Source: Calditrichota bacterium | GTDB taxonomy: Bacteria; Calditrichota; Calditrichia; Calditrichales; J004 | DNA length: 47,384 bases | Assembly (NCBI GenBank): GCA_003696775.1 | Contig: RFFS01000128.1 | Coordinates: forward strand, 1-47,384 | Direction of reading: 5' to 3' | Shown: piece by piece, positions 26,601 to 28,190 of the stretch | How the letters are laid out: every line of letters begins with the position of its first letter | Position numbering within the stretch: the first letter of the stretch is position 1 | Program-made: the position numbers and the translations under genes | Notes under the pieces: generated by a model | The model's input: only the letters and a program-made list of their open reading frames with translations | Databases searched by the model: none | Told to the model about the DNA's origin: nothing

Positions 26601-26714
26601 ATTTTCCTGCCTTTAGTGTACAGGGATAAATATAGAAAAGCGCGATCATATTTGCACCCTGCCTTTGATATGAATAAGTTTTCCTTTACACCGCAAAAAA
26701 CAGAGGAGGTCACC

Positions 26715-28190
26715 ATGGCTCGTCCGGAACAGGAAATATTCAACGCTTTGCGCGCCGTGCCCGGCTTATCAGACCTCAATGATGATGAAATACGGCATAT
26801 TGCGTCCATTTGTCACGTGGTAAAGTATAAAGCACGGGAAACTGTTTTAAAAGAAGGCGAGCCCGGTGATACGGCCTATGTGGTTCTAAACGGTGTATTT
26901 TGCCAGATGCGCTTCGGTCATACTCTCAAACAGTATCATGCTTCCGAGATGTTCGGTGAAGCCGCGCTACTTGATGAACATACCCATACCGCCACCATTG
27001 TTGCCTGGTCCGATGGCGCACTGCTACAACTAAAACGCGCGCAATTGGAAGACGACGCGTTTGTTCCCGCCGATTTACGGGCGCGCATATATAAAATATT
27101 CGCGCATCGGATGAGTCAATATCTGAACCAGGGTGAGGCGCTTTACAACGAAATGGACGTGCTGCTGATCCAGGATGGTGGCTGCGCGCCGGGCTACAAC
27201 TCGGTAACCGCGTTTTTATCGGAATATCTGGAAAAACAGGGCCATCGGGTATTTATTGCCGCCGCCGGATTTCGTTCTCTTGTATCCAACCGTAACGAGG
27301 ATTACCGTTGTCTGATATACGACAGCACCGTTTTTCGTCAACTGGATACCATACGCGGTGTAATTTTTTCGCCTCCCCTTCGGGATGAACGCGGCGCCAA
27401 CTTTCGCAGCGAACGTTTTCCCGATTTCAAAAAAAGCGCCTTACAAAAACAAGCGGCGGAAAATATTCTCAAACGTCATGTAAAAATTGTAGTGGGCATA
27501 GGCGGCAACGGCACCTTTAAGGGCACACGAGCCCTGGCTGCGTATCTGCCGGAAAGCGTCAAAGTCTATTTTATACCGGTAACCATTGACAGCGATGTAT
27601 ATGGCACCAGTTGCATTGGGGAATTTACCGGCGTGGAAGCCGGCGCCGATAAAATCCATTGTTACATGGCCGATTCCCGCACCCATCAACGCTGCTATAT
27701 CATCGAGATGATGGGGGCCCGGGGTGGATTCCATGCCCTGCATTCCTGTCTGGGAGCGGGCGCTCATCTGGCCGTTTTACCCGGATCCACTTACGATCTG
27801 ACCAAAATTGCCGCGGCCGTTAATGCCCGGCGCAACACGGTAATTGTTGTAGCCGAGGGCTATAAAAGGGATATCCGTAAGGCAACGGGTTATCCTGGTA
27901 ACGCGGCTGAATTTTTCCGGGATGAGTTGCGGACACACGGGCTGGATACAAAGCAAAAAGTAGTGTGCGAACCATTCTCGCGTGATATTCGCGGAGCAGC
28001 GCCCAACAACATGGATATCACGCTGGCGCAACGCATGGCCCGGCGCCTGGTTGAAATGATAAACAGCGGTGAAAATCGCGGCATGCCTGCCGTTCAGGCC
28101 GGCAGGGAGACATCCATTCCTTTTGACCGGATTCGCACCGACAATTCCGTGGAATGCCGGCTGGCGGAATTAGCCAACCGGCTCTATTAA
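26715..28190 (+). CDS. Fusion of a cyclic-nucleotide-binding (CRP-like) domain to a 6-phosphofructokinase-family domain
   Basis: The ATG at 26715 is set by GAGGAGGT just upstream; earlier in-frame codons run into trmH. The protein has 491 residues. Residues about 8-140 form a cNMP-binding fold: VVKYKARETVLKEGEPGDTAY, then the phosphate-binding cassette FGEAALLDEHTHTAT, in which the Arg that normally contacts the cyclic phosphate is His91. Residues about 146-485 are a full PFK fold: GGCAPGYN (155-162), SERFPDF with Arg234 (E. coli Arg72), GGNGT (263-267), TIDSD (290-294) with catalytic Asp292 (E. coli Asp127), HQR with Arg326 (Arg162), MGARGG, AEG (380-382) and RGAAP with Arg426 (Arg243). The Mg-binding Asp103 equivalent is Asn265 and the MGR Arg is Ala335. 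Gly266 favours ATP over PPi use. It could be an allosteric kinase or a sugar-phosphate sensor. Confidence 0.9.
   Translation: MARPEQEIFNALRAVPGLSDLNDDEIRHIASICHVVKYKARETVLKEGEPGDTAYVVLNGVFCQMRFGHTLKQYHASEMFGEAALLDEHTHTATIVAWSDGALLQLKRAQLEDDAFVPADLRARIYKIFAHRMSQYLNQGEALYNEMDVLLIQDGGCAPGYNSVTAFLSEYLEKQGHRVFIAAAGFRSLVSNRNEDYRCLIYDSTVFRQLDTIRGVIFSPPLRDERGANFRSERFPDFKKSALQKQAAENILKRHVKIVVGIGGNGTFKGTRALAAYLPESVKVYFIPVTIDSDVYGTSCIGEFTGVEAGADKIHCYMADSRTHQRCYIIEMMGARGGFHALHSCLGAGAHLAVLPGSTYDLTKIAAAVNARRNTVIVVAEGYKRDIRKATGYPGNAAEFFRDELRTHGLDTKQKVVCEPFSRDIRGAAPNNMDITLAQRMARRLVEMINSGENRGMPAVQAGRETSIPFDRIRTDNSVECRLAELANRLY

Follow-up and report, generated by a model that had tools for sequence, protein, structure and literature searches.

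A phosphofructokinase joined to a cyclic-nucleotide-binding domain in Calditrichota belongs to a distinct, conserved clade of its superfamily

Background

Phosphofructokinase (PFK) is a standard textbook example of allostery; in the bacterial type known so far, ADP and PEP exert their control through a single site. Here we describe a family, termed CNB-PFK, in which a PFK domain is preceded by a cyclic-nucleotide-binding (CNB) domain. It resembles bacterial ATP-dependent PFK, as represented by E. coli PfkA (TIGR02482), in its fold, in Asp127, Asp129, Thr125 and Arg72, in R162, E222 and R252, and in Gly104 and Gly108. Unlike PfkA, it carries the N-terminal CNB domain, has mostly lost the effector residues, and has Asn or Asp for Asp103, mostly Ala for Arg171, Arg for His249 and Val for Gly124. 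A non-Asp residue at position 103 is also found in PRK14072-type PPi-PFKs, and bacterial PPi-PFKs likewise lack classical allostery (PMC12203962), but CNB-PFK has neither the GGDD aspartate, nor the PKTIDXD lysine, nor the bulky residue at 108 of the PPi-dependent enzymes (NF041103; PRK14072).

Related domain arrangements are known from other proteins. In mycobacterial Pat, an N-terminal CNB domain sits on a catalytic domain and is directly activated by cAMP (PMC5861322). This CNB-GNAT protein is a precedent for direct gating, although its catalytic domain is a GNAT acetyltransferase and not a glycolytic kinase. Trypanosome PGKL (PGK-CNB-HTH) combines a glycolytic-enzyme domain with a CNB domain (PMC4106842); unlike CNB-PFK, it is eukaryotic, places PGK first, is apparently inactive and has an HTH-like region. 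Yeast PFK also bears an extra N-terminal domain, which is glyoxalase-like (PMC12203962), but this added domain differs from CNB and the yeast PFK is tandem-duplicated. A 2025 review of the PFK superfamily gives tandem duplication and the yeast glyoxalase-like domain as its fusions, with CNB not among them (PMC12203962). No description of a CNB-PFK fusion was found in the full-text literature searchable here, outside the coverage of which lie subscription papers and preprints; sequence databases probably already hold the family unremarked.

Methods

The window is a 47,384-nucleotide stretch of contig RFFS01000128.1 from a Calditrichota bacterium. Residue statistics were drawn from 24 CNB-PFK representatives of at least five phyla, and phylum counts refer to the sampled genomes only. 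PFK positions are given in the numbering of mature E. coli PfkA, for which the reference sequence was 100% identical to the copy in a deposited genome; residues of the window protein carry their own numbers (Table 1). The AlphaFold2 model of the window protein was built from 24 family members and has a mean pLDDT of 79.

Results and discussion

The gene and its family

The CNB-PFK gene is an open frame running from the ATG at 26715 to the TAA at 28188-28190 (+) and encodes 491 amino acids. Its start Met is common to the congeners L015, L016 and L017. A longer mechanical ORF from 26433 was rejected, since it overlaps a divergent SpoU/TrmH gene and the congeners start at 26715. The window protein matches PF00027 (cNMP_binding) at 52.3 bits against a gathering cut-off of 27.5, and PF00365 at 157.6 bits against 30.9, covering profile positions 2-277 of 277. 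The Pfam profile search of the window protein returned no other significant domain, and the C-terminal HTH that is a trait of CRP/FNR transcription factors was found by Pfam neither in this protein nor in its relatives. A CRP-like domain ahead of a complete PFK in a single frame, as proposed in an earlier sequence-only reading, is confirmed by the Pfam matches, the ORF and the upstream AGGAGG. In the AlphaFold2 model, the CNB beta-roll is followed by a helix at 119-136 and then by the PFK core, and the catalytic loops 158-160, 293-296, 334-340 and 422-428 have pLDDT below 50. The closest PDB structures to the model are the bacterial ATP-PFKs 5xz7 and 3u39 (E ~4e-17).

Table 1. Features of the CNB-PFK locus, with positions in the window and residue counts among the 24 representatives
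Feature	Position	Strand	Remarks
Shine-Dalgarno AGGAGG	26704..26709	+	5 nt upstream of ATG; sequence
CNB-PFK gene, 491 aa	26715..28190	+	same start in congeners
CNB domain, residues 36-112	26820..27050	+	PF00027, E 5.8e-14
Glu82, phosphate-binding-cassette Glu, kept	26958..26960	+	Glu 17/24
His91 at cassette Arg position	26985..26987	+	Arg 15/24, His 6/24; His in all four congeners
Interdomain linker with long helix (119-136)	27051..27158	+	AlphaFold2 model
PFK domain, residues 149-449	27159..28061	+	PF00365, E 5.6e-46; fold match to ATP-PFKs
Arg234 = E. coli Arg72	27414..27416	+	24/24
Asn265 at E. coli Asp103 (Mg site)	27507..27509	+	Asn 17/24, Asp 7/24
Gly266 = Gly104, ATP-type donor signature	27510..27512	+	24/24; criterion PMC12203962
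Gly270 = Gly108, ATP-type donor signature	27522..27524	+	24/24
Val289 at Gly124 (Lys in PPi-PFK), family-specific	27579..27581	+	Val 23/24, Ala 1/24
Asp292-Ser293-Asp294 = catalytic Asp127, Asn128 to Ser (family-specific), Asp129	27588..27596	+	24/24 each
Arg326 = Arg162 (F6P phosphate)	27690..27692	+	24/24
Ala335 at Arg171	27717..27719	+	Ala 21/24, Arg 3/24
Arg423 at His249, family-specific	27981..27983	+	Arg 24/24
Arg426 = Arg252	27990..27992	+	24/24

The same domain pair, which the earlier reading had suggested seeking in Calditrichota and their neighbours, was found there and in other phyla too. Full-length relatives occur in 9 of 40 Calditrichota genomes (the window genome included), in 16 of 395 genomes of the phylum of Chlorobiota/Bacteroidota relatives, in the planctomycete Ca. 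Uabimicrobium, in 1 of 195 Myxococcota genomes and in 4 of 149 genomes of a further phylum represented by rumen bins. A plasmid collection yielded ordinary PFKs only. All 24 representatives match PF00365, and 22 match PF00027 at E<0.01. In a tree of PFK domains, the 24 representatives and two CNB-less relatives form one group (support 100/100) on a long branch, separate from the PFKs of ATP, mixed and PPi type that these genomes also encode. The window protein falls below the cut-offs of both the canonical ATP-dependent PfkA model TIGR02482 (112.9 bits; cut-off 371.35) and the PPi-PFK model NF041103 (81.9 bits; cut-off 550). Within the PFK superfamily it belongs to a clade of its own, which is distinct and conserved.

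Strong constraint acts on the PFK part (dN/dS ~0.035); the rate of evolution is about fourfold higher in the CNB part (dN ~0.21-0.25 vs 0.05-0.06, with dS near saturation). A recent pseudogene was rejected on the dN/dS of the PFK part; a frame or assembly error was rejected because genomes of several phyla, independent of one another, encode full-length relatives with 46-86% identity.

A proposed role for CNB-PFK

With about even confidence, we read CNB-PFK as an active, probably ATP-using kinase for an F6P-like sugar phosphate, with the CNB domain as its regulatory input. The enzyme would phosphorylate a fructose-6-phosphate-like sugar phosphate with ATP, and a ligand bound in the CNB beta-roll would act on the PFK core by way of the long linker helix. 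CNB-PFK would run beside an ordinary PFK, which is PPi-type by signature in many of the hosts, and the cell would gain a switchable ATP-driven step alongside an unregulated one. More tentatively, and in our judgement with the balance against it, a cyclic nucleotide may bind the PFK directly and switch it, and thereby set flux through glycolysis or gluconeogenesis with no need for transcription or phosphorylation, the effector site having been traded away and the clade accepting other inputs (one receiver-like case). If true, this would be a new route to direct signal control of bacterial sugar breakdown. A conserved PFK clade of several phyla with a mostly lost effector site and a second-messenger-type sensor would represent a different answer to the same control problem, and the family offers a testable system of members with and without the full cassette, a receiver-like swap and a stand-alone relative.

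The CNB domain and its ligand

In the PKA-type phosphate-binding cassette, FGELALIYGTPR, the Glu-to-Arg spacing equals that from Glu82 to His91. The cassette Glu and Arg, which together mark a functional cyclic-nucleotide receptor, are both present in 12 of the 24 representatives and incomplete in the other 12. The window protein belongs to the latter, and all four species seen of its genus combine Glu82 with His91; the cassette alignment agrees with the earlier claim that the canonical phosphate-contacting Arg is missing there. Since the cassette Arg is His, binding of cAMP or cGMP is less certain in the window genus than in its relatives, and from the residues seen it is plausible that the ligand there is a non-standard cyclic nucleotide or that none is bound. 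For the family at large no unusual ligand has to be assumed, because half of its members have both cassette residues.

It is possible, though we think it doubtful, that the kinase is active and its CNB domain serves assembly or another ligand in place of a cyclic nucleotide, as in family 2B encapsulins. The incomplete cassettes, those of the window genus included, point in this direction, as does a weak, sub-threshold match of the window protein to the family 2B encapsulin model; the CNB domain of these encapsulins has a divergent cassette and binds no cyclic nucleotides (PMC12407261). The full PKA-like Glu and Arg cassette of 12 members argues the other way. As the preferred reading leaves the ligand open, the two overlap, and the probabilities we attach to the several readings do not sum to one.

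The PFK active site

Nine positions are invariant in all 24 representatives (R72, T125, D127, D129, R162, M169, G170, E222 and R252), and each protein has the catalytic TIDxD with both Asp together with the equivalents of R72, R162 and R252. Alignment places Arg234, Arg326, Arg426 and Asp292, which the sequence-only reading had listed as kept, at R72, R162, R252 and D127, and agrees that Asn265 and Ala335 stand for the GGDG Asp (D103) and the MGR Arg (R171). The window motifs are GGNG, PVTIDSD and MGA, versus GGDG, PGTIDND and MGR in canonical PfkA. The description of a mutated metal site was correct for Asn265 and over-read in its implication, since this position is Asn in 17 members and Asp in 7. 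As to conservation, which that reading had left to be checked, Ala335 is widely but not universally shared, Asn265 is found in most members, and His91 occurs in the window genus and a few others. Read from the alignment, Asn265 and Ala335 are clade traits and not decay. The three members with Arg171 all have Asp103; the occurrence of Arg335 solely alongside Asp265 (3/3) hints at an ordered loss, in rows that are related and few.

Three donor signatures are listed in PMC12203962, the third being P(G/K)TIDXD. Here the clade has Val (23/24), which fits neither the ATP nor the PPi class. The invariant Gly104 and Gly108 are of the ATP type, consistent with an ATP donor. None of the PPi-PFK signatures (GGDD aspartate, PKTIDXD lysine, non-glycine at 108) is present in the window protein, which has Gly266, Val289 and Gly270, respectively.

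Loss of Arg171 in 21 of 24 members and the clade changes at 124, 128 and 249 mean that turnover, donor or acceptor may differ from those of PfkA. We consider it unlikely that CNB-PFK is an active kinase for another acceptor or donor, its site retuned by Val289, Ser293, Arg423 and Ala335 for sedoheptulose-7-phosphate, PPi or another donor, for example. The substitutions G124 to Val, N128 to Ser and H249 to Arg are near-uniform in the clade and absent from the other PFKs of the window genome and from E. coli PfkA; the hosts already own another PFK, and activity on sedoheptulose-7-phosphate is known for some PPi-PFKs (PMC12203962). However, the phosphate-contacting R162 and R252 and the sugar-contacting E222 and M169 are unaltered, and Gly104 and Gly108 mismatch the PPi signatures.

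Less probable still is a PFK domain without catalytic activity that acts as a sensor of sugar phosphate or ATP and passes its signal to the CNB domain or through it. In favor of this, most members have other residues in place of Asp103 and Arg171, a sugar-binding effector site has arisen from the C-terminal half of eukaryotic PFK (PMC12203962), and trypanosome PGKL pairs a degenerate PGK with a CNB domain (PMC4106842, PMC7729029). Against this, the catalytic base Asp127, Asp129, Thr125 and Arg72 are present in every representative, and some members retain both Asp103 and Arg171. Asn265 is no proof of inactivity, because Asn and Asp alternate in the clade and Asn or Gly occurs in PPi-PFKs: a PRK14072-type PPi-PFK (453.6 bits; cut-off 273) has Asn at position 103 (GGNDS) and is encoded at L020:1660-2604 (-) in the Myxococcota genome, ~3.4 kb away from its CNB-PFK, and Gly fills this position in the PPi-PFK structures 3hno and 3k2q. 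An active kinase is favored over a dead sensor because of this alternation at 265 and because the catalytic base and substrate residues are kept throughout. Of the two alternatives first offered, an allosteric PFK under the control of a non-standard nucleotide and a dead sugar-phosphate sensor, the former is thus preferred for its kinase, and its unusual ligand is not needed family-wide.

Effector-site loss and exchange of inputs

Of the ADP/PEP effector residues, R21, R154 and E187 are replaced in all 24 representatives (R21 by Ala in 22), R25 in 23 (one has Arg at 25) and R54 in 18. Gly185 of the effector region is kept, and K213 is mostly Arg. By these residues the classical effector site is mostly lost from the CNB-PFK clade, and the CNB domain would be the obvious replacement input.

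Two relatives carry the same PFK with different inputs. At L082:1138-2631 (+), in genome G604, a PFK of the clade follows a receiver-like (REC) domain and has no CNB; this domain scores E 2.3e-4, below the Pfam cut-off, and visual inspection suggests that its conserved Lys and acidic pair have degenerated. At L083:1441-2565 (-), in genome G468, a stand-alone PFK of the clade has GGNG and MGN and a very long branch. The CNB domain is viewed as an input module because one relative swaps it for a receiver-like domain and another has none, which fits a PFK output with exchangeable input domains, from a single case each.

Companion PFKs and genomic neighborhood

The window genome has a second, canonical ATP-PFK (396 bits; cut-off 371), as the earlier reading had proposed to check, and in addition a PPi-PFK (654 bits; cut-off 550) and a mixed-type PFK at L002:1348-2418 (-) on contig C22 of genome G000. 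The mixed type has GGGG for GGDG and MGH for MGR, as in three congeners. At least one further PFK was present in every other CNB-PFK genome checked, except rumen bin G049. Most of these companions are either of the PPi type (GGDD, PKT) or mixed, the latter carrying a bulky residue at 108, with exceptions in the window genus, G336 and Uabimicrobium, and CNB-PFK is therefore the only PFK with both ATP-type glycines in many hosts. Although nearly all genomes carry at least one other PFK, a regulatory subunit co-assembling with the host's ordinary PFK, in the manner of the paired subunits of yeast PFK, is very improbable, as the class of the partner PFK differs between hosts, even inside one family.

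Genes of carbon metabolism recur beside CNB-PFK outside Calditrichota. Pyruvate, phosphate dikinase (PPDK) lies directly downstream in three Thermochlorobacter-type genomes (L023, L073, L078), GlgA-GlgC is close by in G336 and GTP-PEPCK in G055, the rumen-bin phylum has an aldehyde dehydrogenase as a neighbor, and L082 lies beside a GalT-like gene. The neighbors in the window genus are a TonB receptor, TrmH and an aminotransferase. Local pairs only, and no conserved CNB-PFK operon, were found across phyla; the recurring neighbors support a metabolic role without a single conserved operon.

Four domains of the class III cyclase type are encoded in the window genome along with six CNB domains, and of the latter at least one has a canonical cassette (FGEMALLTGEPRSA). 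Class III cyclases were detected in 21 of 22 genomes examined, among them every CNB-PFK genome examined, and in all 40 Calditrichota; the one genome in which none was detected is G468 (n=1), which has the stand-alone PFK L083. They do not discriminate, because Calditrichota without CNB-PFK also have them. A link between cassette integrity and the presence of class III cyclases was dropped, the cyclases being near-universal in the genomes examined.

Two minor observations were made. Three CNB domains are clustered at positions 11452-15917 of contig C92 of the window genome (L090-L092); in at least one of them the phosphate-binding cassette is fully canonical and a receiver-type domain is attached. 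At L018:7651-13440 (+), a row of paralogous DUF3857/transglutaminase-like genes adjoins CNB-PFK.
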